The notes under the pieces are model-generated. The model did no database searches. It was not told the DNA's origin and saw only the letters and a program-made list of their open reading frames with translations. Shown in pieces: positions 33,665 to 58,210 of a stretch of 64,000 nt of DNA. The stretch comes from Metarhizium brunneum (lineage: Eukaryota > Ascomycota > Sordariomycetes > Hypocreales > Clavicipitaceae), in NCBI RefSeq assembly GCF_013426205.1, contig NC_089426.1, positions 930,001 through 994,000 of the forward strand. The letters run 5' to 3'. The first letter of the stretch is position 1; each line of letters begins with the position of its first letter. A program made the translations under genes and the position numbers.

Positions 33665-35071
33665 GTCTAGATTTTCGTAAAGTGCAGTCGATACACTGGT
33701 GTCACGCGGCGCCGTTGCTGTGAAAGATGGAATCTTGAAATGGCTCTGGTTTGATGGCAGAAGACGACCAGGCGCGTCAATGGGTTGAGCGAGTCACCTG
33801 AGCGCCAGACCAAATTGACGATTTGACGAAAAAAAAGTACCAGACAGCTCCAGGGACATGTACGGAGCCGTTTGGTGTGGTGAATTTGCAGCTTGGCCCA
33901 GCCTCCACATCCAGCGGCGGGCGCGTATCCCCCCCCTTTTTGCCGTCCAACCAACAGTGCATCGACACATCCCTGCTGCAGTGACAGTCACAAACTGCCA
34001 CCGAGTCTGTCTTATGTAAGCTATTGACACCAAAAGTGGAGAACTCTCCTGGCAGTGCAGGCTCTCCATCTCTCTTTACCACACTTCGTTTCCTACGGTT
34101 TCGCGCAGCATTGATGTTTTCTCCATCCTTCTTTCGCCAATTAAGATGGGATCTATGCCACAAACTGGTTGAGGCGTGTTATGGCAGTATTTGAAACAAG
34201 GCATTGAGAGCAAGCAGGCGGGAATGGGGGTCATCTGCAGTACACCATGTTTGTTCAGCTCTGGTCACCCAGGTAAGCAACAGGCAGGGGGGATCTCTCC
34301 CAAGATTGGTGGCCGGATATGCAATTCATCGGGTGGCTGAGAAATTCGTTTTACGAAGGATTCGTCACGCGCATGCACAGAAAGGCTTCACCCGCGCTGT
34401 GGTTTGCTTTCCTCGAGATGGTCACTTCACTAGCGTGGAAACGATCTTGGTCAACCTCTTGTCGTCTAACATCTCCCGTCTGTACTCTTGGAGAACAGGA
34501 AATCGAAATCGAAATCGAAATTAAGATAGTAGGCGTGTTGTCAGGGTCGGCCCTTCAAGGAACATGGCGCTAGCTCATAGTGTGACGCTGGGGTTGCAGC
34601 GCAAGCCACCTCATAACTCAGAACATTGCTAAAAGTGCATCATTGGGAAGTGGAGATATTCTCGATATCGGCATAGTATCTACAAACGAACCCATCTGGT
34701 CCTTCTGGAGCTAAAAACCAGATGACTCGGGACAAGACATCGCATGGAAAGCTGAAGCGTATTCCAGCCTTCGCAGATAGGCTGAAATTGACTGGGGCTC
34801 AAGATTCTTCACCAGAAGAGCAGACATCATCTGCACATCTTACACCATGGTAGTACATGACCAGGCCCCTCCCTCACACCGGAATGGTTCCAGGACTCAG
34901 CCTCTATATATGTGCAGGAGCCAGGGAGGTGGCGTCGCCTCGAGACAGCAGACAAGGCTTCCACTCCCAAGACGAGACCCTCGAAGGCTGTCAGAGCTGG
35001 CCCGGATGACCAAGTGCAAGACAGCATCCTGACTAGATCTCTTGACTAGATCATGGCTTCCACTCTACACA
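33665..35071. other. Intergenic, with short GAAATC repeat
   Basis: 1.4 kb without a supported gene between the ceramidase start and the NLR start. A microsatellite of GAAATC x3 plus GAAATT lies at 34499-34522. The plus-strand frames around 34.2-34.6 kb show no family resemblance. Confidence 0.5.
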
Positions 35072-38000
35072 ATGGCGCAGTTAGATCCAGCAATCTACAC
35101 TATTGCATGGATTGCACCCCTTGAGATCGAGGCCATTTCAGCCCTGCATTTGCTCGATAATTCACATCATGGCCGATTTTCTCTCAGTCGCGGGGATGAT
35201 TACGTATTTCACGCTGGCGATGTATGCGGACATAATGTCGTCATCGCAACATTACCGGCTGGTCAGGAATATGGTACAGGATCAGCCGCGGCCTTGGCTG
35301 CCCAAGTCAAGAGGTTTTTCCCCAACCTTTGGTTTGGCTTACTTGTTGGTGTAGCCGCTGGGTTACCTCTTCTCTTTGGACCTGAACGACGCGACATCCG
35401 GCTCGGCGACGTAATAGTCGCGCTTCCCGAAGGTGACAGCGCAGGGTTATTCGCATACGATTTAGGGAAAGAATGCGCCGCAAAAGGCTTCCAACCCTTG
35501 CGATCTGGACATGTCCTTGCTGTAACAGAAACTGTCGTCAGGTCGGCCATCGGGAGTATCAAAATCCACGCGCCAAATGATACGGCCTTTTTTCTTCCGT
35601 TTTACCATGATATAAAGCACAGAGAGCATGCATCTGGGAATTTCATGGACCCTGGTCAGGATAATGACGTGTTTTACGACATGAACGAGCACGGAGTGCA
35701 CAGCGTAATTGCCCGAGAACCGCGGCCGAAGTCGAGACGTACTCGAGTCTGGTATGGGCCAATAGCCTCTGGAGAGAAGCTAATGAAGAACGCAGTGAAG
35801 CGCAATGAACTAAGGGATAGATATAAAGTTATCGGCATCGAGATGGAGGCTGCCGGGACAATGAATCGCATACCTGTGGGTGTTATCCGCGGGGTATGTG
35901 ATTATGGAGATGAGCGAAAAAACAAAGAATGGCAACCTTACGCAGCAGCCATGGCTGGAGCGTATGCCAAAGCCGTTTTGGCACAAATTGGACCCAAGAA
36001 CCTTCAGTCTGCAGCTGTATCCGAATCCAGCCAGGGTAGTTCCACCAGTCAGTCCTTGAAAGAAATCGTTCTGTGACAAAGCATAACACTGACTCAAGAA
36101 AAGTCATCAGGGACTTGCCCCAACCGAGTACAAAAAGTGACGGATATTCGGACGAGCCATGCAGGAACGAGTATTTCGAGACGCCGCAATCAGTGACCAG
36201 CCTCTTCACGGGCCGAGAAGATTTGCTTGATGATCTTTCCCGTACCTTTATCCAGTCAGGAAGCCCGAGAGCTGAGGCACAGCGCCGCTTTGTGGTCTAC
36301 GGACTAGGTGGTGCGGGAAAGACCCAATTCTGTTGCAAGTTTGCCGAAGAAAATCGCGACAGGTATGCGTAGAACTAGCCTGCTCTGAACTCTAATGTCC
36401 TAAATCTGACCAATGGAGCACCCAAAACAAGATTTTGGGGAATATTTTGGATCGACGCTAGCTCTGAGGAGAGAGTTGAAGACAGCTTTAAACACATAGC
36501 CGCTCTGGCCCTACTACCTCGAAACGCGAACGCTGCTCTACATTGGCTCTCAAAAGCGGACAAGAAATGGCTTCTTATTATCGATAATGCCAATGACTCG
36601 AGAATACCCTTGGAGAATTATTTCCCAAAGGGCAGATGTGGACACATTCTCATAGCGACACGCAATCCGGCACTGAAAATACACGGGAACACCGGACCAG
36701 AATTCTACAATGTCAGCGTGATGGGTTTCAAGGAGGCCAAGAGCCTGCTGCTGCGGTCTTCCGGCGTGCCTGCGCCATGGGCTCGTGATTCTGAGGATGA
36801 CGCAATGACGGTCACGAAAGCTTTAGGACTTCTGGCCTTGGCAATTGTGCAAGCAGGTGCAGCCATTCGCAGCGGTCTGTGTAAAATGAAGGACTACCTC
36901 AAGTTCTATCAGCGTAGTTTTGATAGACTTCGACCTACCAATCGCTCGAAAGGCCCAAGCAAGAACGAAATGGACGCATATGCAACTTGGGAGCTGAATT
37001 ACGAGCAGCTAGAGAAGAAGAATACTGAAGCATCTGAAGATGCCATCCAGTTACTCCAAGTCTTTGCTTTTTTCCACAGAGAAAACCTTTCGCCAGAGAT
37101 ATTTTCGAAGGCCTTACAAAACTTCAAGCTTGAAGTGGACCAGCAACAGAAAGAGTCTGGGGCTGAATGCAAGGCAACGACTTGGAAACAATGGTTTAGG
37201 GAAATGAGTGTTCTCGTCGTCGCTTTTTTGAAGAAAAACAGAGGGCCTCCCCCAATTCCACGTCTCCTCCGCGATGGTCGGCAATCTGGACGCCTCGAAG
37301 AGTGTGAGGATCGCATTCTTTATGCATTGAGAGAGCTGACTGATCTATCTCTGATAGAGCGAAACTCTCACAACGATACATATGTTATGCACCCAATCAT
37401 CCACATTTACGCTAGAGAACGGCCCAGGATGAAACTCGTAGACCAGGTACTTTGGGCCGACGTTGCTGGTATCGTCCTTGCGTCCTCTATCCTTCTGCCA
37501 CCGCTAGGAGTTGGAGAAGAGGTTGAAAAATTCCACATCAGCTTGCTTGCCCACATTGAGCAAGTCGAGCTTTGTCGCGACGACCTACGAGATAGGGTAT
37601 CGAAGAAGGAACCGTCTTGGACTTCTTGGTTAACCACTGCATCTACAATAAATATTGATTTGCTGCGAATGAAGGCCAAGTTTGCCTTTATTTATGCTAC
37701 TTGTGCCAAGTGGGATAAAGCAAGGTTATTGCTCGAAGAGGTCAAGATGATTTGCGATTCCGTCTTGGGCGCCCACGATCCTCGGTCAAGGAGAGCGACT
37801 CTTTTCCTCTCCGATGTGCTTGTGTACATGGATCGATCTATCGAAGCAGCAAGCTTGCAACAAGCATTACTCAAAACCTGCTCAGGATTCCTGGGCAAGG
37901 ACCATCCTGATACATTGAGGGTGATGAGCAAACTGGGAGGAACTCTCTGGCAACAAGGGCAGTATACTACAGCTCTAGATTTACAAAGAACAGCTGTTGC

Positions 38001-38820
38001 TGGCATGAGGGTGCAATTGACAGCAGAGCACCCCGATACGCTCGAGGCAATCGACAATCTTGGCCGAACCGTCTCCAAGTTCTGGGCACGCGACAACATT
38101 GAAGAGTCGCGTCAACTTCATACCGAAGCAATTGAAGGAATGACTAAGATACATGGGGCCGAGCATGAAAAGACACTGACCGCCAAAGAAAACTTGTGCA
38201 GGATCTTGGTTCTACTTGGCGGAGACTATTTCAACGTGGCCGACGGTTTAATGAACCATGTGCTTCAAACCCGCAAGACCAAGCTCGGAAAAGAACATCC
38301 GCAAACGCTTCTAGCAATGGCCAATTACTCAATTGTAAAGTGCGGCATCGGCGACTTTGATGCGGCAGAGAAACTGATATCGCTCGGCTTGCCTATTGCC
38401 GAGAGAAATCTGGGTGAGAACCACATCGGTGCCCTTTTTGGCCGTCAAATTCTAGCCTGCATACTTATGCAGCAAGACAGGCTGACTGAGGCGGAAGAGA
38501 TGTTGCGTCAAGTCACTGAAAAGCAGAAGAGTATGGAGTCGAGACGTGGAAACTATCACCCTGATCGACTGGGAGCACTTATTGATCTCGCTCGCTGCTG
38601 CTATTTACAAGGGAAAATTGCCGAAAGCATTAGAACCTGTGAGGAAGCGCTACAGGGTTTCACATCTATCAGCATCCAGGAACACCCTCTGGCATCATTG
38701 CTAAAAGCTGCCAGAGAGCAAATGCTGAGACAAGAGGGCCAGGCAAATGACAATGTGCAGGATGCTCCACAAGCTAACGTCATCTTCCCTGCTATATTCT
38801 TCAAGTTCCCAGAAGATTGA
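35072..38820 (+). CDS. PNP/NB-ARC/TPR NLR-like receptor, frame break after PNP domain
   Basis: Start at ATG 35072 (MAQLDPAIYTIAW). Residues 1 to about 320 are a phosphorylase/nucleosidase-type (PNP_UDP) domain ending GVCDYGDERKNKEWQPYAA. The reading frame then stops at 36074-36076, and a new frame starts with the ETPQSVTSLFTGRE lead-in of the NB-ARC: Walker A YGLGGAGKTQ (near 36300), Walker B WLLIIDNAND. A clean intron 36363-36431 lies within it. TPR repeats of kinesin-light-chain type follow (about 37690-38680). A splice with donor 36052 (GTCCTT, weak) and acceptor 36110 (CATCAG, CTGAC branch) would restore the frame; another option is 36017/36081. Otherwise the gene carries a frameshift. 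Fungal NLRs of this build act in allorecognition or stress sensing; the ligand is unknown. Confidence 0.85.
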
Positions 38821-40439: not shown

Positions 40440-43400
40440 CTACGCATCATTATGAGGCTCAACACGAGGCAGTCCCCCAACTCCCCCAGCCACCATGCCA
40501 ACCATGACCACCGACGGTGCACACACCGAGCCTCTTCTACTGCCAATAACGTCGGCATCTCGATTTTGAAGTAGCGGTGTTCTCTCATTATCAGAATGCC
40601 CTCTTTCGGATTCGACTCCAGAACTGGACCACCCCCAACCCCTTGACGAGGTGCGGATCAGGCGCCGCAGCCGGGAACTCCGTGGCTGCGTACACGTAAC
40701 TAGTTCGTAGCGGATGTGGTCAACCGTCGAAAGCCACGTTGCGTTGCTCGGCGTCGTCGAGGGCGATCGTTTGCGGAACCACGTTTGCCACGCCCTCGGT
40801 AGCCCGAATGCGCTTGCAACCACGTCGTCGGGAAGAAGTCGAAGCAAGACAGCAACAGGCATACACAGTGCGCCAAGAAATATCGAAATCATCCATTCCT
40901 TGACCGAAAGCGGCGTTGTTGAGAGTGCGATTCCACCAATGGTCACAATGAGAACCTGGCCCAGGATGATGATGATGTTGACAACAATGAAGTAGACATT
41001 TTTGTGCAGGCCCTCAAAAATGTTGAGCTTGTTGTCTAAACGGCGGTTGCTGCAGGTTGATTAGTACTACCATCTGCTGTTGGGTGAATTGAATGACTCA
41101 CTTGTATAGATTGAATAGCTGCATCCATACAAAGGTATTGAACACAAATGTCTCCAACGTAGCCGCCTCGTCTGACCTCACGAGCTTCAGAAGATCGGCC
41201 CCCTTGAAATCGAGTACGAACATGACGAGCAGTTGGTATATTGCCTGTCCGATAATCATCTTCCACCCGGTAATCGATATCATCGGCGTGGCTTTGGTAT
41301 CCGGGGCGCGCTGAAGGACAGAAGGATTTGCCGGGTCAGTCGCAAGCGCCAGCGCTGCTAGCGTGTCCATAATCAGGTTGATCCAAAGCAGTTGGGCAGG
41401 CGATATGATGGATTCGCCTGTGCCGCTGGACACAGATGATACGAATGTGAGGGTGACGGCGGTGATGTTTGCCGTGAGCTGAAACTACGCAAGCGTTTAG
41501 TTTTCACCATCTTGATGTCGGGACAGTCTGCAACCTACATGGAGGAACTTCTTCACTACGTCGTTAATACTCCTGCCCCACTCAATAGCGCTTACAATGG
41601 ATGAAAAGTTATCATCCATGAGAACGATGGACGATGCCTCCTTGGCGACGTCTGTGCCGGATATCCCCATCGAGAAGCCCACGTCTGCCGTCCGTAGTGC
41701 CGGCCCGTCATTTGTCCCATCGCCAGTGACGGCCACGGTCTCACCCAGCTCTTTGAGTCGCTGGACAAGTGTCTTCTTGTCCTCGGGGCTAGATCGAGCA
41801 AGAACCTGTAGTTTGGGGAGAAGATCGTACATCTCGGATGCAGACAGGTTTCTGAATTGGGACCCTTCCATGGCGATCCCGGAATCGGTTAAAATACCAC
41901 ATTCTCGCGCAATCGCGCGCGCAGTTTGGATGTTATCACCCGTAACCATTCGAACCGACACTCCTGCCTGGGCACATTGCGCTATGGCATTGGTAACTTC
42001 GGGTCTGAGAGGGTCATGAATCGCTAGCGTCCCCAGGAATGTCATGCCGGTAAGAAGTTGCTCCCACATCTCATCCTCGCTCGATGTGCTTGTTGGTGGC
42101 CAGCAGACAATATCCTTGTAGGCGAATCCGATGGTCCGTAGTGTAAGCCTTCCATAGGACTCGACGTTTTGGAGAAGAGATTGGTAGCGGTCAGGGGTGA
42201 GGGTTGCATCCTCCGTTAGCGGTAGGGTTGCATTATACAAGACTCGGTCGCATTTTCGCAAGATGACTTCAGGAGCACCTTTCAAGTACAGTCGGTGCAG
42301 GCCATTCGCTTGGAGGGCCACAGTAGCCATGTACTTTCTCCTAGAGTCGAACGGACAGGCCTGTACGATGTGCGTATTTGCCCGCTCCTCCTGCAATGGC
42401 TGCATACCCAGCCACGTTCTTGCAAAGGTGACAAGCGCGACTTCAGTGCTGGATCCAATAAAGGTCGCTATTCCATCTACTACCCCCTCTGATGCTGTCG
42501 AGTTCGTAGAGATTGACTGCATCAAGACGTCCCGAACTAGCGGATCGACCGACGACCGGAATCTAACGAGCGATGAGGAACTCCCTAGACCGGAGTAGCA
42601 CGGTTGATTACGCTCATCTGGAGAACTCGGATTCTCCTCCATTCCCTGGTGTCCCAGGTCATCAAACGAGCCGTCCAATCCAACACAGCCAGCTGCGACA
42701 GCCATTTTATTCATGGTAAGCGTTCCGGTTTTGTCAGAGCACACCACGGTTGCGTTGCCCATTGTTTCACACGCCGAGAGAACCCTGACCAGATTGTTGT
42801 CCTTGAGCATTCTTGTGACGCCGATTGCGAGAGCGAGAGTTACAGCTAGCGGTAGGCCTTCGGGAACGGCAACAACAATGATGCTTATTGATATCATGAA
42901 CACCCTGAGGAACATCTGCACAAGCTCAACAAAGGACCGGTCAGAGCCCGGTAGCTGAACGAGGATTTCGATGCCAAGGACTCCAAACAACAAAACAGAG
43001 ACGGTCACGCCGGCCACGGCTATCCTGTCCGCTATGTCACTCAGTTTCTTCTGCAACGGCGTGGCTTCCGTCCTCTCGGTAACGTCCATCTTGAGTCGGC
43101 CATACATGCTATTGACCCCAACTCCGGTGACCAAGTAGGTGCCCATTCCTTTCAAGACTTTGCTCCCAGAGATCATGAATGGGTCTATATCCTTGGCGAC
43201 CTCGCCAATGTCCAGTCTCGACAGCGCAGTATTCAAAGGCGTTTTGGTAATGTGATCCGATTCACCAGTGATGGACGACTCATCACACCGCACTGAGAAC
43301 CCCGTCACTAGCACGCCATCGGCCGGGATCACACTGCCGGCGGAGACGTGGAGAATATCGCCGACGAGTATGTCGAAAACAGATATTTCCGTACTCTTCC

Positions 43401-44118
43401 CAGAACGTATCGCTTCCACAACCCGGTCTTCGGTCTACGGCATGGTCAGAAATTGTTCCTAGCCATTCGCTGCGCCGTCGGCCATGGGACAAGACACACA
43501 TCCCGAGGCACAAAGGGGTAGCGATGATGTACGTACCTTTTTGACGAGACGGGCAAACTGCTTCTCTTTTTGGTAGTCGTTGACTGCCCCTGTTACTACA
43601 ACAATGAGAACGGCCGCCATGATGGTCAAGCTGTCCACCCACTCAATCCTCGGCTGCCCTGGCAGATGTGGTTGGAACAGAGCCTGATATACCCCGATGA
43701 ACAATGAGATGCCGGCGACAATACACAGCAGAACCAGGACCTTGTCGCTCAACGCAAGCATCATCAGCTCGAGGATGCCCTTTGTCTTCTTTGGCGGTAT
43801 CTTGTTGACACCGTATATCTCGACTCTACCTTGATGTGGCCCGTGTATCCCTTGCTCCAGTGACGGGCGGCCAGCATCAGACGATGATACGTCCTCACAC
43901 AGGCCGGCATGTAAATCAGTTTGCAAACCTTGAGCCAGGCCATTGAGTCCGCCGAGGGCCTCGAGCTCCGCTATGCTCTTGGAAGCAATGGTCCCGGCCA
44001 AGGCCTTTGGCGACAAAAGAAACGGCGCACCGCACGTGCTAGAATGGGACAGGCGCCGACTACTTGACCTGCCGTGGACGGCGAAGGTGCTGCAAGACGA
44101 GGCAGAGTAGGTCCTCAT
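40440..44118 (-). CDS. PMCA-type P-type Ca2+-ATPase (PMC1-like)
   Basis: Four exons: 44118..43537, 43434..41539, 41484..41102 and 41049..40440, with introns of 102, 54 and 52 nt, give 1156 aa. Domains in order: N-terminal extension, first TM pair after GILELMMLALSDKV, actuator loop with SSITGES (Thr250-Ser253), PEGLP (385-389) in the fourth helix, the phosphorylated Asp428 in CSDKTGTLT, TGDGTNDGPAL hinge and the C-terminal TM bundle with the PANPSVLQR loop. A long Arg/Ser-rich tail follows. The family moves Ca2+ out of the cytosol into vacuole or out of the cell. The start is the first in-frame ATG; sequence upstream looks coding-like (PVIDCADVDPDNTSATTISPVF), so a 5' exon may be missing. It heads a cluster of three Ca2+ exchangers. 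Confidence 0.9.
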
Positions 44119-45995
44119 GGCGGAGAAGACGGGTGAGATGGTCGTGGCCGACGTGTTGTCCGGGTCTACATCTGCGCAATCTATCACGGGTATCTGGAGA
44201 GCTGTTTGACGATCAGGTGTCCTGCCGGAAGACGAGGCAGACGGCGTTTGCAGATGGCTGTTTTGAACAACGACCTCGTCCTGATGGAGCGTTAGACGCC
44301 GTATGGACCAGGGCCGGCGCACAAACTTACAGCAGGATGTATTGCTATTGTAGGAGCTCTCTTCCGTGACGGAAATTCGGTCTCTGGTGATTGCTCGCCA
44401 TAGCTGCCAGCCAAGGGCAACATTGCACTCCTCCTGGTACGTCGAGCCGGCTACGCATCTGTCAGCTACCCAAGGGGTTGGTGACGGAAACAGAGGCCGC
44501 GACGGAGACTCATCCGAGGAGGCCCGGCTCTTTATTGGATCGATGCGCAGCTGATTGCGCAGAGGCGAAGACAGGGGCGGTGCTCGCGCATCGTGTCCAA
44601 GGTACTGGGGTGGCGTGACAAGTGCAAAAACAAGCACCAAGGGAGCAGTCGGTTAAGTGTGCAGGTATAAAAGGACATGGAAGGACCAGACGGAAGCGCG
44701 GAAGCTAAGTGGCATGGAGTAGAGACGAGGGGTCGGCGGCTCGTGGAGACGACGTCGACCAGTTGACCCTCAGCTCCGTTGCCCCCTCATGTGAACATTG
44801 GCTTCCCGTGGCCAAGTCAAATGACGAGGCGCCGTGGCTTGTCCTGGCCTACCGAGCGATGAACATGGCTGCCGTGAGGCCACTGAGCAAATCGGCAATG
44901 TCATGATTTCCACTTGACCTTTTTTTTTCGGCATGGCGCATGGTTGAAGGATCAACGACGCAGTCTGGCAAGGTCGCATCAATCGTCCCACAACGGCTTC
45001 GGCAGCAGGAACAGAGCTGCGAGTGATGAATTGTGGTTTCACCAGACACCCCCCGTCATTTACAACCAGACACCGGCAGCCCGGCACAAGGCCTGTAATA
45101 GCTGATCTCACAGCTGTGGAGTTTTGCTTGTGGCTGACAACTTCCGGCCCAATCTGGCCCCACAAGCCACTTATGATGAGGACGTCAACGACCGACCGGA
45201 CAGCTTCTGAACGGGTTGCGACCCATACTTCGGCAAGTGTGGGGACGAACGGGCTGCTGGACCTTCAATGTTGGGCAAGGCAGCATCGAATGGGTCAAGT
45301 CACAGGATGGAGTACGGCATAGCATAGTTGAGAGCTTAATACGCGGGGTGGCCCAAGTCAAAACCCCAGCCGCATGCCAGGTGCCTCTTTGGCCGCCTTC
45401 TACGGAGTATTCCATCAATGATCAATTGATCTGCATTGACCTCATGGACTCACCATGGAACCTTGGCTGCGGCCTGGAACCGAGTTGGTTGAGCGAAACC
45501 AACGCCGGCTCGAGCTATCCATAATTTAGCATTTCGCGCATCAAGCAATGTAACTCGCGGAAAACCCCTGGAACGCCTCGTTTTCCTTCACGGAGGAGAA
45601 TGTACAGAGTACGGAGTACCTTGCCAGAACAGCGCAGCTTCACACATGTCAACGGTGCACCTGTAACAGGCGTCGTGCTGCCTGGGCCGATGGTGGCTTA
45701 GACCTGCCGATGAGACAAGGATGGTCCGTCCATGTCGTCTGAAAAGCATTCATGGCCCATGTGCACCCGTCATCTGCGCCGTGACTGAACATTGAACTGC
45801 CAGCACTTGAGGCTTGGCCCGGCTGATTCCCGTCCAAGAGGTGAGCGGGACATAAGCCCCCAAGGACCGTGGCACGGCCACTCTACGCCAACCGTCTCCC
45901 AAGCTTTTGCCCGACGGGAACTGAGTTTTCTCGTGTCTGGTCCGGTGTATACATTTTCGAATCCACGGGCACAGCTCGCCAAGCCATAACGCAAA
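44119..45995. other. Divergent region between Ca2+-ATPase and first exchanger
   Basis: 1.9 kb shared 5' region; part (44119-44350) may be coding as an upstream extension of the ATPase. A GTGGCTGA at 45130-45137 partly resembles the calcineurin-responsive CrzA element; one partial match could be chance. No other gene is supported. Contains several short palindromic or simple runs but no LTR-like end. Confidence 0.4.
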
Positions 45996-47368
45996 ATGGA
46001 GACCAGCAACCGGCCGCAGCAGCCCGTATCGACAATCCGGCGGGCGGCCACGAGCACGCTGGCCCGGCTCTTCCATGCCGACTCGTTGCTGGTGTTTGTG
46101 CCGTTGGGCTTCGCGGCACACTGGGCGCGATGGCCAGACACGCTCGTCACGCTGAGCAATGTGCTTGCCATCATGCCTCTGTCGGCCCGTCTGTCCGACG
46201 CCTCCGACACCATGGGCGACAGATGGGGCAGCTTGATCGGCGGCCTGATCAACGCGACCTTTGGAAACACGGTCGAGCTAATTGTGAGTATATACGCAAC
46301 ACACATGGCGCATGAGAGCCTCGCGACTAAATTCACGACAGGTGGGCATCCTCGCCATCCTTCGACATGAGCCGCGGCTCGCGCAGTCCATGATGATTGG
46401 CAGCATCCTCTCCGACATTCTCCTGGTTCGTCAACGCCCGCGGGCGGCCTGATCTTGTTCTAACGACCACAGGTCCAAGGCTGCTGCTTCATCACGGCGG
46501 CCCGCGGCACCGGCGTGTTGAACGTCAACTCGGCCGTGGCCGACACCCTGTCCACCCTCATGATCATCACCACGGTGGCGCTTGTCCTCCCGGCGGCGCT
46601 GTACTCGACGTTTGCCGCCAAGTCGGGCGGCGAGAGAGACCTCGGCCGCATGGTGCTCAACTTTAGCCGCGCCACGGCCCTCGTGCTTCTCTGCGTCTAC
46701 GTCGCCTACCTGTACTTTCAACTCAAGACGCACTCGTCCATTTTTGTAGACGAAGACGAGGATGGAGAAGATGACGACCAGCACCATGATGTCTTGCCGT
46801 CTTCGTTGCCGCAGAGCCAGGCTGCTGCCGAGGAGGTTCCGCAGACGGATAGGCCCTCCATGGCAGATATTTCTGTCGCTGCGCTGACGCTGCTCGTGTC
46901 CGGGCTTCTCATCGCCAAATGCACGGCAAACTTTATGGATTCCTTGAATGGCACCTCGCGCGCCTTGAATATTTCCAAAACCTTCATCGCCATCATCATC
47001 ATGCCGCTTGCGAGCAACGCTTCGGAACTGGCACAGGTGGTGGCCGCCTCGAGGAATCAAAAGATTGACTTTGCCATTGGCGTCATTATCGGCAGCATCC
47101 TGCAGATATCGCTGTTTGTCTTGCCGTTGCTGGTGGTCGTGGGATGGATACTACGCCTACCCGTGGATCTCTACTTTGAGCCGTCGCAAACCTACATTCT
47201 TCTTTTGGCAGTCATCATGGTCAACCAAGTGCTCCAAGACAAGCATTATACTTTTTTACACGGGACATTGCTTATAGCAGTGTAAGATGTACCGATTTTC
47301 TGCGTAACAAGACACCGCTAATTTCCATCTCTAGCTACGTTGTCATCATGGCGGCTTACTTTACATGA
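45996..47368 (+). CDS. CAX-type Ca2+/H+ exchanger, copy 1
   Basis: Four exons: 45996..46283, 46342..46425, 46473..47281 and 47335..47368, introns of 58, 47 and 53 nt, 404 aa. About ten or eleven TM helices. Cation motif 1 reads GGLINATFGNTVELI at the end of exon 1; motif 2 is PLASNASELAQVV (47004-47042) with its Glu kept, followed by IDFAIGVIIGSILQISLF. An acidic loop (DEDEDGEDDDQHH) lies between the halves, as in VCX1-like proteins. It should exchange vacuolar H+ for cytosolic Ca2+. Of the three copies, this one keeps both acidic sites. It converges with copy 2, 41 bp between the stop codons. Substrate Ca2+ versus Mn2+ is not resolved. Confidence 0.92.
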
Positions 47369-47409
47369 CTGCTTCTAATCCCGATACATGCCGCGAATCT
47401 TGTCGACAC

Positions 47410-48995
47410 TCAAAAACGACGAATTCCCAAGGCAGATAGGCTGGTTTTGGTAACATCGGGTCGGACATATAACGCAATGGCAATAGATAGGTACCTAGTG
47501 GACATTCAATGTTAGCAAACCCCGGCGGCAGGCGTCGGCTTATTGCAAAGTACATACGTCCCCATGAGCATGATTCCTTCGAAATACGTCGTTTTTCCAT
47601 GCTGCACCAGGTACGTCATGGTCAAGATGGCCATCAAGAATATGACGGCTTCGAAAAGTCCAAAACTCAGTTTCATAGGCTCGCCCACCGCCCAGCCAAG
47701 CAGGACCAGCATAGGCAGGATGAAGAGCTCCGTGTCGAAAACGTTGGTCATGATGGAACGGATGGCAAAGTCGAGACGGCCCATGCCACTCGGCAACGCA
47801 TCGGGGCTGGATCGAGTGTGCCTGATGATGGTAACCGCCTTCATCAAGCTGCCGGCCTGGGGCACCACGACCAGCGCCACAAAGGACTCGGACACGCCCA
47901 GAGCCTTGGTAGCTCCAGCCAAGCTCCGTACCAGATAATAGCTACACAAGGCCGTGAGTGCAAGAGCCCCCAGACCCACGAGGGTCATGTTCACATGAGA
48001 TGGGCCAGATCCACGGCTCGACCCGGATACAGATGAGACGCCGGTACTGGTCCGGCTGAGACGGGGGGCGTTGGGGTTCCGGGGAAAGATGCGATTGTGC
48101 GTTCGGAAGCGAAACACAAGGTATGCCAGGAACAGGAACATTTGGACGAGGGACGTGGCGCGCGACAGAAACAGAGGGTCCCTGTTGACCTTGTCGGCGT
48201 GGTGCTTCTCCTCGACAGCCATGGCAATCACGGTCGGGATCGCGAGGCAAATGGAACCGCTCATGACGAGGGACGACATGATGGAGGTCCGGGTTCTGCT
48301 GAAGGGCTCCTTTTTCTTCCCGTAGCTAGCCACGAGAAAACTGAAGCCCAGCACCTGCGCAGTGGTCCTTTGGTCAGCAGCAGCCCGCGAGTTGGCACGA
48401 AGACGGAATGGGGCTCTGGGAGGCGCACAAAGAGGCAATATGTCAGAATACTTCCAATCATGATCCATTGCGCGAGCTGCGCTTTGCCCTGCAGCAAGGC
48501 GCACATGCCGAGCTAGAAACGCAGTAGAGTTAATCGACGAGAAAGCACACTGCCGGGTCCTCGCGTCCGTACCGTAAGTTCAGTAGCATTTCCAAAGACG
48601 GCGCGCAGCAGTCCGCCGAGCAGGGCGTAGTCGGCGGTAAATGCGAGAATGGTGTAGAGAACCAGGGCGGAAAGAGGCACGAGGGCGATAAAATTGAGGG
48701 CGAAGACGACGACGACGTGAAGACGCAGAAAGCCCGCCGCTATGCCCGCGGGAGCAAACACCAGCAGCGCCTTGGTCGGGCTGGAGTAGAGCTCCTGCAG
48801 CAGAGTCGCGATCTCTTGGTAATGCGTTTCTGTCCGCATCCGCAGAAACATGGACTGGGTCCTGGCGACGGGCGGTATCGACTCGTCTCTTCCAGGCGCC
48901 TCGGCGTCGTCTGCGGCTGCCCTGCCTTCGGCCATGGCGCGTCGTCGAGCTCGAATGCTTGCTGCGAGCTGTGGGTGGCTATCGGCGCCGGGCAT
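47410..48995 (-). CDS. CAX-type exchanger paralog, copy 2, second motif lost
   Basis: Four exons: 48995..48573, 48512..48429, 48354..47558 and 47494..47410, introns of 60, 74 and 63 nt, 462 aa from the ATG at 48995. Introns sit at the same places as in copies 1 and 3, and the second exon is again 84 nt. Motif 1 is GNATELT with LLRAVF before it in place of the usual L-I-N-A-T. Where motif 2 (GNAxEH) is expected it reads VVVPQAGSLMKAV, so the second conserved acid is gone; MGRLDFAIRSIMTN follows in place of the usual DLA-G-GSS-Q. Arg-rich N-terminus. Probably a membrane protein of the vacuole or related compartment; exchange activity is doubtful. Confidence 0.88.
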
Positions 48996-49565
48996 CGTTG
49001 GAGTGTTGACGCTATCTAGACTATCTCCAAGGACGACAAGCCAGTGCTTGGCGTTTATGGGGGGTTCGAGATGGAGCCTCAAGGGGCCATGGGCCGGCTC
49101 GACGGCCAATCTGACGTCTGGTCTGGTCAAGTGCAAAATGGCACGCTGATTGACCCTTTGTGACGTGGTCTGGCGGGGCGACGTGCTCGATGATCCAAAG
49201 CAGTCCGTCCATCATCTGCACGCCGTCACGGAACCTGGCCGCGTTTGTGAGACAGTGTAATTAATTCTTGACCCTGGCTGAGCAACTCTCAGCTTCCGGG
49301 TGACTGCAGCCAAAAGGTGCCGTTTGATCCAGTAACCCTGGCGACTTTTGCATAGCCACTGCAAGCTTGGGCGCATCAATCGATGACGGCTCCACCGAGG
49401 TTGGACATCAAAGCATCAATTGATGATGCATTTGCTCTGTCTGACCGGTGGTAGACTGGCAGTGCGCTTTGCTTTGTCCAACATTGAAGCAAGCACCGAG
49501 TAGTTGTGCCAGAGAGTGAGCCGTCTGGTCTCTCTGGGCCCTCAAAACACCCGCCAAGCATCACC
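48996..49565. other. Divergent promoter of exchanger copies 2 and 3
   Basis: 570 bp between two divergent ATGs, so both genes may share control. No obvious TATA box or calcineurin-responsive element was identified by eye. No gene within. Confidence 0.5.
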
Positions 49566-50954
49566 ATGAGTCCAGAGACGCAGAGCCCGAGGGACGACGA
49601 GACGCGGCCGCTGCTTGCCACCACGCAAAATGGCCAGGCCACGCGCCGAAAAGACCTACTGCAGAGCGCACGCAAAGAGGGCACGCACGCCTTGATGGCA
49701 GCCCTGACGTGCAGCTATTCCAACGTGCTGCTTCCCTGCGTGCCTCTGGGCCTCATGGCCGGCGGATGGGGATGGCCGCCGGCCGCCGTCTTCGTCCTCA
49801 ACTTCCTGGCCATGCTGCCGCTGGCTTCGATCCTCACCTTTGGAACCGAGCAGCTGGCTGCCATTGTAGGTTCCGTGGCCGGCGGCCTGATCAACGCCAC
49901 GTTTGGCAATGCAGTAGAAATGATTGTACGGTCCCCTCTGCCCGCGTCCACGCAAAACCATGTGCTCACCCTCACATAGGTGGGAATAAGTGCCTTGAGA
50001 GAGAATGAAATATCCATCGTCCAGTCGAGCATGATTGGAAGTATTCTGTCTTCTATTCTGCTGGTCAGTGAAACTCACCCTTCCGTCTTGTCGCTTTGCT
50101 CATCAAGGTTATAGATTCTCGGAACGTGTTTCCTGCTCGCTGGCCAGGGGAAGAAGTCAGTCGACATCAACGTCGACGTCGCTGGCGTTTTGACATCTCT
50201 CATGATTATATCCTGCGTATCGCTCATCATGCCCTCGGCGCTGCACATGTCGGACCCCAACCGTGGCGGCTCCAACGACCATCCCAGCGAGCACGTTTTG
50301 CTCCTGTCGCGCATCACCGCCGTCATACTGCTCTTGTTTTACCTCATTTACCTGTACTTTCAATCGGTCACGCACGCGGACCTGTTTAGCGAGGAGGAGG
50401 ACCAGCCTGAGGACAAGCTGCACGGCCTGTCCAGCAGCATCATCCTCGTGCTTGCCACTCTCGGCGTCTCCTTTTGCTCTGATGCGCTCGTCGATAGCGT
50501 CGATGGCTTCGTCGAAGCGCTAGGGGTCAGCAGAAGCTTCATTGGCCTCATTATTGTGCCGATTGTCGGCAACGCAGGGTGTCTGGTCGGGACGGTGCAG
50601 TGGTCGAGGTCGGATCGCGTCAATCTCGCCGTGTCCGTGATTGTCGGGGCGACGCTGCAGATTTCGCTCTTTGTCACGCCCTTTCTCATCGTGGTTGGCT
50701 GGATCATGGGCAAGCCCATGTCGCTGCAGTTTGACACGTTTGAGACGATTGTGTTGACCATGTCGACGCTGGTTGTGAACTGTATAGTGCACGATGGGTC
50801 GACGAATTACTTTGAGGGCTTGTTGCTGGTGAGCACGTAAGTGGTGCCGTTTATACCCGTTGACGTTTTGTATGATCTTCTAACTGTTTGTAGGTATGTG
50901 ATTATCGGTATAGCTTTTTTTGTTCATCCGGATGCGGTCGCAACTTCATCGTGA
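49566..50954 (+). CDS. CAX-type exchanger paralog, copy 3, second motif altered
   Basis: Four exons: 49566..49925, 49980..50063, 50115..50836 and 50894..50954, introns of 54, 51 and 57 nt, 408 aa. The second exon is again 84 nt, and the final intron falls in the same codon phase and place as in copies 1 and 2. Motif 1 is intact (GLINATFGNAVEMI). Motif 2 reads IVGNAGCLVGTV where GNAAEHVTAV is usual: the Glu is replaced by Cys, while the next block (VNLAVSVIVGATLQISLF) is conserved. An acidic loop (SEEEDQPEDKL) separates the halves. A membrane exchanger by fold; cation exchange may be weakened or altered. Confidence 0.9.
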
Positions 50955-52237: not shown

Positions 52238-53192
52238 ATGGACAAAGCTACACTCGAGCCGGCGATGGAGACCGGCCCAGAAAAGGCCAAAACATCCTGG
52301 CAGGAATACGCCTATATCAAAGAATTGCCAGACGACATTGCGCCATTCAAAGAACTACTCCAGCAGTACAGCAAAGTCCCTCCGGACAAGGTTGACGAAT
52401 TACTTCTCCGCACCGTACGTCACACCCCAGCAATTGATGCGCAATGCCATGGCCGCCGCTGATACGACCCCCATCAATTGACAGCGAGACCGGCTCTGGG
52501 ACGTGGTCAACTATCCCTGCATCGGCCTCTGGGCCTTTACCAAGCTGCACAGCACCACAGACTCGCGCTTCGAAGCCGCCACGCAGCGACTCCTCGCCGA
52601 GGACCCCGTCGAGTCCGGCGGCACAAGGCCCGCCATCCTCGACATCGGCTGCTGCATCGGCCAGACCCTTCGCCACCTCGCCCACAAGGGCGTGCATCCC
52701 TCGCGCCTGTACGGGACAGACCTGCGCCCCGAGTTTATACGCATTGGAAACGAGCTCTTTGGGGACGAGCAGCGAGGGCTTACCTTTGTAGCGGGGGACG
52801 TGTTGAATGCCGACGACAGCAGCATGAAGGAACTAGATGGCAAGGTGACACTGATTCACGCCGCGTACTTTTTTCATCTTTTCACGTGGGACGACCAGGT
52901 CAGGATCGGCGAGCGCATGGTGCGCTTCCTGCAGCCGGGGACGAGCGACGCCGTCGTTTTCGGGAGGCACATTGGCACGCTGAGGCCCCGGGAGTTGGAG
53001 GTCCCGACCACACGTGCGTCCAGGTGCTACCTCCATGACGGGGAGAGTTTCCAGAGACTGTGGGATGAGGTGGGCAGCAGGACGGGCACGAGGTGGCGCG
53101 TGGAGGCGGAGATGGCGGACCGGCTGCACGTGCGGTTTCCGTTTTTTGGCGACGACGAGAAGTACATGTCCTTTGGGGTTTACCAGATATAA
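52238..53192 (+). CDS. Class I SAM-dependent methyltransferase
   Basis: Two exons, 52238..52414 and 52485..53192, with a 70-nt intron (GTACGT, TTGACAG), give 294 aa. Start chosen at MDKATLEPAMETG; in-frame ATGs at 52073 and 52124 would add up to 55 residues. The SAM-binding motif I is ILDIGCCIGQTLRHLA, followed by the acidic loop LYGTDLRPEFIRIG and LTFVAGDVLNADD, then the motif IV region VTLIHAAYFFHLFTWDDQ. This fold includes small-molecule O- or N-methyltransferases of fungal secondary metabolism. No synthase is adjacent, so the substrate is open. It converges with the oxoprolinase-like gene, 230 bp between stops. Confidence 0.88.
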
Positions 53193-53422: not shown

Positions 53423-56400
53423 TCACACGTTGAACTCGTCAATCACGCTCCGCGGCTCGGTGAACGGCACGCCGCCGTCCACCGGGGCCATGTTCAAGCC
53501 GAACCCTGCCGGGCCGCCAATGGCCATGGCCGCGTCCGTCTTCCACAGCGGGTGGGCAGGCAGGGCAATGACGCTGACGCGCAGGCCGAACCGCAGGTCC
53601 TGGGAGCCAATGGCCTCGCCGTCGTGGCCGAGAATGGAAATCAGCTCGGGCACGGTGGCGACGACCTGCTGCGATTCCGGGGCGCCCGCGTCGTCGCAGA
53701 GCGCCGCGTACAGGTACTCGTTCTGGAAGGGGATGATCATGTGGCCGTCGGGCTGGGCGGGCTTGGACTCGGCGTCGCGCTCGTCGGCGGCAAAGGGGGC
53801 CAGGACGACGGCGCCCATGGTGTAGCCGCCGTCGAGGTGGCGCTGGACGTCGACGATTTTGCCGGTGAAGAGGACTCTGCCGGCGCAGACGTCAAACTAG
53901 ACGGGGCCGTCGATGTTAGCTGGTGCCCCACGTGGTAGACTTCAAATTGTCATGAATCGGTCTGGACGTACAATGGCGTCCGTGTAGCTCGTCTTGGCTC
54001 GCCTGGCTTGGTGGACAGCCCGTCCCAGGTACCAGCTTTGGGAGAGCGTGTTGGGCACCGCGACGCTCTTTGCCATGGCGCCCGAGATGGGGTTTGTGCC
54101 GCAGGCGCAGCTGAGGCCGAGCTCTACGGCTGCGTTGCGGCAAATCGTCTCGAGGCGCTTTGCGCTGTCGACACCCTGGCGGACGAGTTAGCGACGGCCT
54201 TGGTCACTCATGTGTCTGGTGTATCGGGAGGTGCTCACCATGGCGACAACAGCGTTGCCGCGGGCGTCTGTGATGACGGCAGGCGTCATTTCGTGCCCGT
54301 ACACGCTGAATGTGACTTGGGGCGGCCGGTTAGCGTGCCGTGTAAACTTTGATGGTGATTATGCGAGGGACGCCAGTCTTACTATGATACATGGTTGGAT
54401 AGGCTCTCCCCATGCCGTCGCAATCCAGGACCGGAACGTCAAAGTAAGTGCCGACAGGAAGGGCGGAGAGGCCGTTTCCACCGCCGCTGGCTTCACGGTT
54501 AGTTTTTCACAGACTCACTAGCAATGGTAGGAATTGGGGGCGCCGAGAACGCACATCTCGTCGGCAAGAACGGCATCAAACGTCTCTATGTGCTGGATCC
54601 TGTTGACAGCCTTGATGGCATCCACGATTTCGTTGCCCGCAGCAATGCGTTCGTTGATCACGCTCGGGCTGCCATACCACGTGCCGAGGCATACAACAGC
54701 ATCGTCCCTCAACGACTTGGGAGAGATGATGCGCATCCGGCCCTTGTCATTGTTGCTCAGGCACTGCAGACTCTTCAAGTACTCGTAGTACGTTGGGCCG
54801 CCGCCGCCGGTGCCCAAGATGGCACACCCCGTCGAGATGAGTTCGAGGTCGATATCCGACGGGTACCAGGTGCCGCCTCGCACGTCCGGACGGTATGTGG
54901 CCAAGTCGACCCCCAGCGAAGGCTTGGTCGTCGGGTGGAGGGCATTCGGGACGCCGACCTTTTCGCCCTCGTCTTGCTCGTCATCGTGGCCGTTTGCCTC
55001 GTCGCCGCTCCCAGGCGCCTCGAACAAAGTCACGTCGTCGGGAATAGCTAGGGTCCCCACGGCCCGGACCTGGATCCGGATCGTCACCTGCGACATGTAC
55101 TGGAGCGGCATCTTGTTCACCTCGACAATCTTGACGTCGTCCGGCCGGGCCCCCTTGGCAATGGCCTGGTCAATGGCCCTTTGGCACGCCGCGGCAATCA
55201 CTGCCTTTTCATCCTTGCCCTCCAGGATCTCGACGGTGTCGACCTCGCCTGAGATTTTGCCAATGGCCGCGCCGACAGCGTTGGCCGCGCCCTGGTGGAT
55301 GGGCTCGATGCACTTGTCGACGCCGGCAATCTTCTCCGTCACCAGGATGGAGCCGCCGCCGACGAGGAGGACGTGCACCGGCGCCGTCGACACCTTCATC
55401 TTGTCGATGACGGTCTCGAGGAGCGCATTGATGCCCCTGCGGCCGCCCTCGCGAAGCTCAGCCGCCACGTCCTTGACCAGCGAGGCATCGCCGAGAGAAG
55501 CCCTGCCCTCGGCGACGACAATGTCGGTAGCGGTCAGCGTAGGACCCCCAAAGACCTTGGCCTGGGACAGCAGCTCGTGGCCTACGGATCCGGGGCCGAC
55601 GGACACGGACTGCGGCGCGTCCGGGTCAACTGTGACTATACTGCCGCCGCCCAGGCCAATCGAGACGACTTCGGGGATGGAAAAGGCGGTTCGGACACCC
55701 GCAACCTCCACAAACCCGGGGGCCTGACGTGGAAAGCCAGAGGGCAGAAGCGCGCAGACATCCGTGGTTGTGCCTCCAATGTCGACAACAAGAACCTGAG
55801 GCTCGACGGCGTCGTTGGCAGGAGCATCGCCAACACCGGGCAGCCCACAGGCATCGAGCTTCGACTCGACGCCATTCACCACCGGGCCCTTGCCGGCGCC
55901 ATGCCGATCCAGGCCGGCGAGAAAGGCCGCTCCGCTCATGCTGTTGGTCGGCCCGCTCGCAAAGGTCTTGATGGGAAAGTCCGCGGCGGTCTCGGCATCG
56001 ATGAGCGTGCCGTCATTTTGAGAAAGATACAGCGGGCAGGCCAGGCCGAGGCGGCCCACGGCGCGCTTGAAGCCGTTCTTGACCCGGTGCCCGGTCCGCA
56101 GGATAGCAGCGTTGAGGATAGTCGCGTTCTCCCGCTCCACGAACCCGGTCGGCCCAATGTCCTGCGAGCAGACGACGCGCAGGGCGGGCGCCTCGTCGCG
56201 GAGGATAGCCCTGCACCGCTTCTCATAGACGTCGTCGTGGTCCAGGGGGGAGAAGACGCCGACGACGGCCACGGCCCCGACGCCGGACGCGACAATGTCC
56301 CGGGCCGCCGCTCGAACCTGCTCCTCGCGCAGGGGCGCCATGTGGCGGCCGTCCATCTCGAGCCCCCCGTCGAGGTAGTAGGCGCCGCCGTCGAGGACGC

Positions 56401-56746
56401 CGTGCAGGCCGACGGGGAACCCGGAGAAGGGGGGGATCTGGCGCGTAAAGGGGCCGCAGAGCCTCACGACGGCGACGCGGTCGAGCCTGCGGGCGTCGGC
56501 CTCGATCAGCGCATTGATGAAGTGCGTCGTGCCGATGGTGACGCTGAGGACGCGGCGCTGGTCGACGGCGGAGGTCTTGAGGACGGCGGCGATGGCGGCC
56601 TCGATGCCGCTCGTGATGTCGGGCGTCGTGGGCGCCTTGTGCGAGGCGAGGACGCCGCGGGAGGGCTGGTTGAAGGCGTGGATGTCGAGGATGGCGGCGT
56701 CCGTGTTGGTGCCGCCGACGTCGACGCCGATGCGGTAGAGAGACAT
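53423..56746 (-). CDS. Hydantoinase/oxoprolinase-DUF917 fusion
   Basis: Five exons: 56746..54555, 54486..54383, 54315..54239, 54175..53972 and 53896..53423, introns of 63 to 75 nt, 1016 aa. N-terminal half: Hydant_A_N with GVDVGGTNTDAAILD, then the hydantoinase A ATPase fold with VLVVDIGGTTTDV and GLGGGSIV. After an acidic linker (GSGDEANGHDDEQDEGE) the C-terminal third is DUF917: LELISTGCAILGTGGGG, FDAVLADEIGGGNGLSA across the first splice, and DCDGMGRAYPTMYH. The two domains occur as a fusion in some fungi. The enzyme family hydrolyses ring amides such as hydantoin or 5-oxoproline with ATP; the natural substrate here is unknown. Cytosolic, GC-rich. A long antisense open frame is a by-product of its base composition. 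Confidence 0.92.
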
Positions 56747-58210
56747 GATGATGATGATGTCGGGGCCCAGACGATGCCGAGTGCAAGGCCAGGCGAACAG
56801 CAGGTTTGCGACGGAGCCATGACGCCCATATATAGACGATGATGGCACCGTCTGTTGCGATGCAGGGTTCGACGCATTGTGCCACGGGCCAAGCTAGCGC
56901 TCCACGGAATCATGAGCGCATACATGTATGTACGTGGGCCGCCGGGATCCAACGCATGGTTCACGACCTGGTGCGTGGAAGCAGCGGCAAACTAGAGACG
57001 GGCCGACACGTCTCGACGAGGCTTGGGGTTTGAGACATCGTGGCCTTGGGGGTTGGAGGGTTTCGGCCAACTTTGTCGGGCGGTTGACACCACGCCGGCT
57101 TGGGGACGACCCCATGTCTCAGATGCGTCTGGTAGCCCACGAGGGCGAGATGGAGGCCCGGCGAGCCGGTAAGGCAGGGGTGCCGGGTTGCATGCCTTGT
57201 TCCCTTCGAATTGCGTCAGAAAAAGTACGCCGACGCTCGGCATCAACCAGGATCAACTCCGCCGGGCCTCGGTGGAGATCGTGGATAACGTGCCAACATG
57301 GAATGGGCCATTTTATCGCTGTAAGCCACGTTCCCCGATGTCATGCCTTGATGCCAATTTGCAATGTTGATATTTGCCGACTGCATCGCGAGTAATTCGC
57401 AACGTCAAATATCAAAATACGACCTTCTCCACAGATATCCCGACGGCCATCTCCGCCTCGCTCACTCCACGGGCCAATCTTGACTGTAAACGTGACACGT
57501 TGGGCCGCAGTACATGGACGAGATTGCATGTACACCGTGACTTACATGATTACCAGTAATACGCAACTGTCTTGTTTGGCACATGATTTTGGGCCAACAC
57601 ACTGGCAACACCTGGTTCCACCATCTTGTCAGCGGCACATGTCGCACCGAAAGAGGAAGGGGGATCCTTGTTGAAGTAGATATGAAAGCCAAACCTTTCA
57701 TCCTCGCCGGGTTTCTGAGCTCATTGTCGCCAGGTTTGCGCTCCGTGTTGGTCCACCCATCAACATCAGAAAGGATCGACGGAAGGCATTGTGCTTTCAT
57801 TGCAAGGGGCCGCGACGTTTCCTTCGCCGAGGCGTGGTTTACAAAGAGTTCCCGGGGGCAGAGCTATATAAGCGAGCTGGACTTGCAAAGGCGCGCAGGT
57901 GGCATGATTTCCAATACTGGTACGGCATGGCGAGGTGCATTCGTCTTGGCCGTTGATGTGGCGCAAACTTAATTTGTGTGCTTCAATCTTGATTCACGTG
58001 CCCATGACGACCGTTGACGAGTTGTGACGATGGACAGCATGCCGCCCGACGTCTCTCCCTACGCCATGTACAAATGTCCATGTCGGCATTTAGTCGCCAA
58101 GGAAGCCGTTGAGATACAGGGCATGACTGCTCGCTGCGACCGCGTGCGCGTCACAACACCCTTGGATCTGCAATGTGCGTACCGGAGGCATCCCAGTCGA
58201 CGGACACAAC
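56747..58210. other. Intergenic; possible 5' exon of the next gene
   Basis: 1.46 kb with no firm gene. An ATG at 58030 begins MDSMPPDVSPYAMYK and could be a first exon of the glycosyltransferase gene; a splice from 58081 to 58197 would keep frame, but the donor is weak. The rest shows no family resemblance. Confidence 0.4.

Follow-up and report, generated by a model that had tools for sequence, protein, structure and literature searches.

The window analysed here is a stretch of 64,000 nucleotides (bases 930001-994000 of contig C5) from the genome (37.8 Mb, seven contigs) of Metarhizium brunneum (Hypocreales, Clavicipitaceae), an insect pathogen used for biocontrol. At positions 40440-50953 it carries four complete and intact genes, which encode one P2B (PMC-type) Ca2+-ATPase, here termed PMC, and three members of the VCX1/CAX family, here termed CAX1, CAX2 and CAX3 (copies 1 to 3). 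Gene models spliced by hand from the window DNA, together with Pfam, confirm the four linked genes of Ca2+-transport families described in an earlier note on this DNA, and the gene coordinates agree with its layout, in which PMC/CAX1 and CAX2/CAX3 form divergent pairs and CAX1/CAX2 a convergent pair. PMC (1241 amino acids, aa) lies on the reverse strand at 44423-40440, with exons at 44423-44331, 44280-43537, 43434-41539, 41484-41102 and 41049-40440, and shares with CAX1 a divergent promoter region of 1572 base pairs (bp; 44424-45995). CAX1 (404 aa) occupies 45996-47367 on the forward strand, with exons at 45996-46283, 46342-46425, 46473-47281 and 47335-47367, and its stop codon is separated from that of CAX2 by 42 bp (47368-47409), not by the 41 bp previously given. 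CAX2 (462 aa) runs on the reverse strand from 48995 to 47410, with exons at 48995-48573, 48512-48429, 48354-47558 and 47494-47410, followed by a second divergent promoter region of 570 bp (48996-49565) and by CAX3 (408 aa) on the forward strand at 49566-50953, with exons at 49566-49925, 49980-50063, 50115-50836 and 50894-50953. The CAX2 start is that of P0001, the protein annotated in M. brunneum, which begins at an in-frame ATG 20 residues upstream of the start of a 442-aa model that is 100% identical to it. Exon 2 measures 84 nucleotides in CAX1, CAX2 and CAX3 alike, a sign of the common origin of the three exchangers.

All three exchanger proteins match the PF01699 profile in two stretches each, with scores of 131.4 (CAX1), 82.6 (CAX2, as P0001) and 136.3 bits (CAX3) against a cut-off of 24.9. 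They also resemble Vcx1, a vacuolar Ca2+/H+ exchanger of Saccharomyces cerevisiae (PDB 4k1c), with phmmer E-values of 8.5e-68, 2.2e-51 and 4.2e-92, respectively, and share with it the family, the predicted fold, both α-repeats and the α-1 GNxxE motif. A PF01699 profile search of the genome yielded at least 20 stretches, grouped by hand into 10 loci, three of which lie in the cluster. VCX1-type queries match five of the seven others (L017, L018, L020, L022, which is matched weakly, and L023) and gave no match to L019 or L021. The VCX1-like L023 (G000:C4:3370000-3374500), outside the cluster, reads FPLANVDYHPI at α-2, without the GNAAEH motif.

PMC shows the P-type ATPase domains by Pfam (in a 1156-aa model) and carries the motifs DKTGT, TGES, PEGLP, TGDGTNDGPAL and NLIMDT, a domain set and catalytic motifs common to the fungal P2B Ca2+-ATPases PMC1 and PmcA-C; its closest kin are found among PMC pumps, and in a comparison of the 1241-aa model with P0206 of M. 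anisopliae, all but 14 of 1241 positions agree. By similarity, the genome has five P2B-like pumps, one of them in the cluster. The PF12424 profile found no match anywhere in the genome and is uninformative. Compared to the cluster PMC, the other four PMC-type pumps (L024, L025, L027 and L029) are 41-58% identical in their main stretches, apart from one stretch at the end of L024 that is only 30% identical. In a PMC tree of 34 rows (short search, midpoint root), the cluster PMC groups with 19 other rows and is separated from these four pumps by a branch enclosing 20 of the 34 rows (SH-aLRT 99). The same tree places P0209, a PMC of Trichoderma cornu-damae with 72% identity, between Conoideocrella and Metarhizium (Clavicipitaceae). 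This placement could mean horizontal transfer, Trichoderma being a member of Hypocreaceae.

The three exchangers differ at the transport site. According to excerpts of PMC10531375, whose numbering of VCX1 is used here (N98 and N133 are our own count along it), E106 and E302 are key for Ca2+ transport, and the available part of PMC10227063 describes the equivalent of E302 in the VCX1 homologue YfkE as required for binding and transport. Among 212 aligned proteins, the E302 position holds E in 165, K in 30, C in 14, R in one, D in one and a gap in one, the last three cases being P0028 (a broken gene model), P0080 and P0076. Counted by group, in sequences of which some are near-identical and which are not independent events, it is E in 128/128 canonical rows and 29/29 CAX1 rows, K in 29/29 CAX2 rows and C in 14/14 CAX3 rows; three CAX1-like rows from elsewhere also have E. 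These groups exclude P0028, P0076, P0080 and a Talaromyces row with K; in the CAX2 group, 13 of 29 rows lack the α-1 stretch, and the window CAX2 and P0001 are the same protein. Thus CAX1 keeps the α-2 glutamate of VCX1/CAX Ca2+/H+ exchangers as Glu309 (codon 47025-47027, forward strand), whereas CAX2 has Lys341 (Lys321 in the 442-aa model; codon 47839-47841, reverse strand) and CAX3 has Cys304 (codon 50580-50582, forward strand). The α-1 glutamate (E106) is E in all three copies and in every group row covering that site.

Further positions set the cluster proteins apart from S. cerevisiae Vcx1. N133, which is N in 128/128 canonical rows, is replaced by D in 29/29 CAX1 rows and by S in 14/14 CAX3 rows, while CAX2 has Y in 14 and A in one of the 15 rows covered. 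H303, present in 116/128 canonical rows, is absent from all rows of the cluster clade. CAX2 in addition lacks S325, Q328 and E83 of Vcx1; its group shows Q328D in 28/29 rows, S325N in 29/29 and N98R in 15 of the 16 covered. As a fixed Lys or Cys takes the place of the Ca2+-coordinating glutamate, CAX2 and CAX3 are probably not canonical Ca2+/H+ exchangers, and we class them as family members by descent and fold, but not as Ca2+/H+ exchangers. The earlier description of three CAX exchangers should therefore be kept for CAX1, which has both glutamates, while CAX2 and CAX3 are better called exchanger-like, their ion site being altered and fixed in that state; in the functional sense, the accompanying statement that all four genes are Ca2+ membrane transporters is not supported, given a Lys and a Cys where the Ca2+-binding Glu belongs.

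The mutual identity of CAX1, CAX2 and CAX3 is 29-37%, which rules out a recent tandem duplication. In a tree of 69 rows, drawn from the 212 aligned proteins and made up of matches chosen by similarity to the cluster exchangers, the CAX1, CAX2 and CAX3 groups form one clade (support 100/99) in which CAX1 and CAX2 are sisters (99/91). A second tree of 57 rows, from which the Talaromyces row with its long branch was removed, gives the same grouping (100/99 and 99/93, respectively). Within this sampling, the three exchangers make up a single side clade of fungal VCX1, which an unsampled relative could still break. Five CAX3 relatives, three from Aspergillus/Penicillium, one from Talaromyces and one from Thozetella, keep the α-2 E, so that the Cys of the CAX3 group looks derived on the tree. 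The CAX3-like P0120 of Thozetella, a Sordariomycete, keeps the α-2 Glu and branches outside the group that unites Hypocreales with the Leotiomycete Pseudogymnoascus; this branching conflicts with species relations, and hidden paralogy or transfer is possible.

Linkage in other fungi was inferred from locus tags and from same-species contigs of equal size, not from the DNA of those loci, using the best 120 matches for the relatives' PMC and CAX. The earlier note had proposed a comparison of related genomes, and the orthologues are indeed linked in other species by these signs. Consecutive or close tags join V499_03662 (PMC) and V499_03663 (CAX1) in Pseudogymnoascus VKM F-103, and MY1884_007068 (CAX3) and MY1884_007069 (CAX1) in Beauveria asiatica. 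In Ustilaginoidea virens, the agent of rice false smut, they join UVI_02015000 (CAX2) to UVI_02015010 (CAX1), also on contigs of equal size, as well as UV8b_05920 (CAX1) to UV8b_05922 (CAX3). Smaller contigs of equal size are listed for CAX1 and CAX3 in Tolypocladium paradoxum (42671 bases), CAX2 and CAX3 in M. robertsii (181458 bases), PMC, CAX1 and CAX2 in Conoideocrella luteorostrata (279133 bases), PMC and a CAX1-like gene in Acephala macrosclerotiorum (364610 bases), PMC, CAX2 and CAX3 in M. rileyi (733892 bases) and CAX1 and CAX2 in M. acridum (793928 bases). Equal-size contigs above 2 Mb, which are weaker evidence, are found for M. album (PMC, CAX1, CAX2), M. anisopliae (PMC, CAX2; two contig sizes), Trichoderma virens (CAX1, CAX3), Purpureocillium (PMC, CAX3) and Hirsutella (PMC, CAX1, CAX3); Beauveria and Trichoderma belong to the same order as M. 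brunneum, Hypocreales. A single 1600-aa model of Talaromyces atroroseus (Eurotiomycetes), P0233, combines a CAX2-type exchanger with a complete cluster-clade PMC behind it, and is read as two neighbour genes merged by annotation, although it may be a true fusion. All four genes together were seen only in the M. brunneum window, and the composition varies elsewhere. Judged by its occurrence in other Metarhizium, Ustilaginoidea, Conoideocrella, Tolypocladium, Beauveria and Pseudogymnoascus, the linkage appears to be old. Three of the 10 PF01699 loci and one of the five pumps fall within this cluster, and such linkage is seen again in further fungi, so that the grouping goes beyond chance.

The two shared promoters were scanned for the MoCRZ1 motifs CAC[AT]GCC, TTGNTTG and TAC[AC]GTA, as given in excerpts of PMC2873923. 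The PMC/CAX1 promoter contains zero, three and zero copies, respectively, and the CAX2/CAX3 promoter one, zero and zero. GNGGCKCA, KGGCWGWG and GTGGCTGTG were scanned as further Crz1 motifs. No motif count in either promoter went beyond what dinucleotide shuffles frequently reach: the smallest fraction of shuffles reaching the count was 0.08, for one of these further motifs, and that for TTGNTTG was 0.12. The shuffles were run on the slightly longer regions 44119-45995 and 48993-49565, and four motifs were recounted on the final regions. The calcineurin/Crz1 control proposed earlier is thus unsupported by the motif counts in these two promoters, a result that lowers, without excluding, the case for calcineurin control; the motifs are those of MoCRZ1, and we know of none for Metarhizium.

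Altogether, it is very likely that the locus represents a gene cluster for ion handling that is ancient and partly conserved among filamentous ascomycetes and whose transport sites are altered; the new point is the altered site of CAX2 and CAX3. The whole proposal, in which the re-shaped exchangers have taken up modulator or other-ion roles, we regard as reasonably probable. In this proposal, a P2B Ca2+ pump belonging to a clade of its own stands beside three VCX1 paralogues of common descent, each of which would later have undergone its own change of the transport site. PMC and CAX1 would clear Ca2+, or a different divalent cation, from the cytosol; CAX1, which retains the two glutamates and has gained a further acid (N133D), would do so in exchange for H+. 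CAX2 (E302K, Q328D, S325N) and CAX3 (E302C) would be unable to run the canonical 2H+/Ca2+ cycle and would most likely act through the retained membrane domain.

Two roles for CAX2 and CAX3 are about equally plausible, neither of them quite reaching the probable: they may be partners that modulate CAX1, or exchangers of other ions. In the plant that supplies the precedent for the former, Arabidopsis, both CAX1 and CAX3 presumably keep the two glutamates, unlike CAX2 and CAX3 of the cluster. Hetero-complexes of the two Arabidopsis proteins, as described in the accessible part of PMC5853972, show that paralogous CAX proteins can modulate each other. A more speculative and rather doubtful variant treats the locus as a set of three exchangers put to new uses beside a single Ca2+ pump, in which the fixed Lys of CAX2, paired with the nearby new Asp (Q328D), would sit in the Ca2+ site as a built-in cation, and the Cys of CAX3 would serve soft-metal handling or redox sensing. 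CAX2 would then no longer bind Ca2+ and might move another substrate, such as phosphate, or gate CAX1; the CAX protein YfkE, according to excerpts of PMC10227063, co-transports phosphate beside the E302-equivalent residue.

A simpler view is an ordinary Ca2+ detoxification cluster under joint calcineurin/Crz1 regulation, in which CAX1, CAX2 and CAX3 all function as Ca2+/H+ (or Mn2+/H+) exchangers and tolerate their site substitutions. The four intact genes in Ca2+-transport families and their conserved linkage are consistent with it, and the acid gained by CAX2 at Q328 might replace the lost one. Nevertheless, we consider this unlikely in view of the E302 invariant among canonical rows, whose YfkE equivalent is needed for binding and transport according to the same excerpts, of a Lys electrostatically unfavourable at a Ca2+ site, and of Crz1 motifs that are not enriched. 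It is very unlikely that CAX2 and CAX3 are degenerate, weakly constrained pseudo-exchangers on their way out, although both have lost an essential residue, several deposited CAX2 models omit an exon, and in a comparison with six species the conservation of CAX2 falls below that of CAX1 in five, the difference being 0.2 to 14 points and largest for Pseudogymnoascus (45 vs 59%). Decay is expected to give mixed residues and broken frames, whereas the substitution at the α-2 site is always the same residue within each group, as is nearly so for Q328D and S325N in CAX2; the frames deposited for Metarhizium, Ustilaginoidea and Pseudogymnoascus have both repeats and no stops, the exon omissions look like annotation differences, and in the three species that allow a comparison of all copies (M. 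rileyi, U. virens and Pseudogymnoascus) CAX3 shows the highest conservation. A pseudogene was rejected as the principal explanation on the fixed residues, the stop-free frames and the CAX3 conservation. The linkage might also be no more than a passive leftover of tandem duplication, with neither function nor regulation coupling the genes, as the single ancestor, the common exon 2 and the lack of a shared Crz1 motif signal would allow. This appears doubtful, because the unrelated ATPase still adjoins CAX genes in the consecutive Pseudogymnoascus tags and the single Talaromyces model, and because passive linkage usually decays after a duplication as old as the identity among the copies indicates.

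Several observations weigh against the reading of a conserved cluster with re-shaped exchangers. Linkage elsewhere is read from tags and equal contig sizes, and a few species speak against it: in M. rileyi the tags are 53 apart (ED733_004458 and ED733_004511) and CAX1 is listed on a contig of different size, and in Cordyceps militaris CAX1 and CAX3 are listed on contigs of different size, which may come from different assemblies. The 120 best PMC matches listed include none from Beauveria or Cordyceps, and the pump may be missing from the cluster in these fungi. The lower conservation of CAX2 leaves room for relaxed constraint, but does not change our assessment, since the argument turns on the fixed residues rather than on the rate of divergence. 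Moreover, the available portion of the review PMC6997533 reports that deleting single Vcx1 homologues in Beauveria moderately reduced pathogenicity and had a slight effect on media high in Ca2+, so that all copies may still affect Ca2+.

Multiple paralogues are likewise described as Vcx1A-E of Beauveria bassiana and as seven VCX1 homologues of Trichoderma reesei; the accessible parts of these reports (PMC6997533, PMC11677643) mention neither linkage nor site substitutions, and their gene identifiers are unmatched to the CAX1-3 groups. Our literature searches found no report of linkage or site substitutions of fungal VCX1 paralogues, with poor coverage of subscription papers, so that absence from print is not established. 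If the proposed reading is true, it would be wrong to regard the additional VCX1 paralogues in filamentous fungi as redundant Ca2+/H+ exchangers, and a physically linked pump, exchanger and altered exchangers could be tested together. The two clades with fixed replacements of an ion-binding glutamate provide a natural experiment on the role of this residue in the Ca2+/cation antiporter superfamily.

On the side of PMC, the cluster adjoins an NLR-like gene (35033-38820), in which a weak match to PNP_UDP, short of the curated cut-off, precedes TPR repeats and a weak match to DUF7779. Beyond CAX3 lie a methyltransferase (52482-53189) and, nearby, a hydantoinase/oxoprolinase with an S-Me-THD domain (54521-56893).

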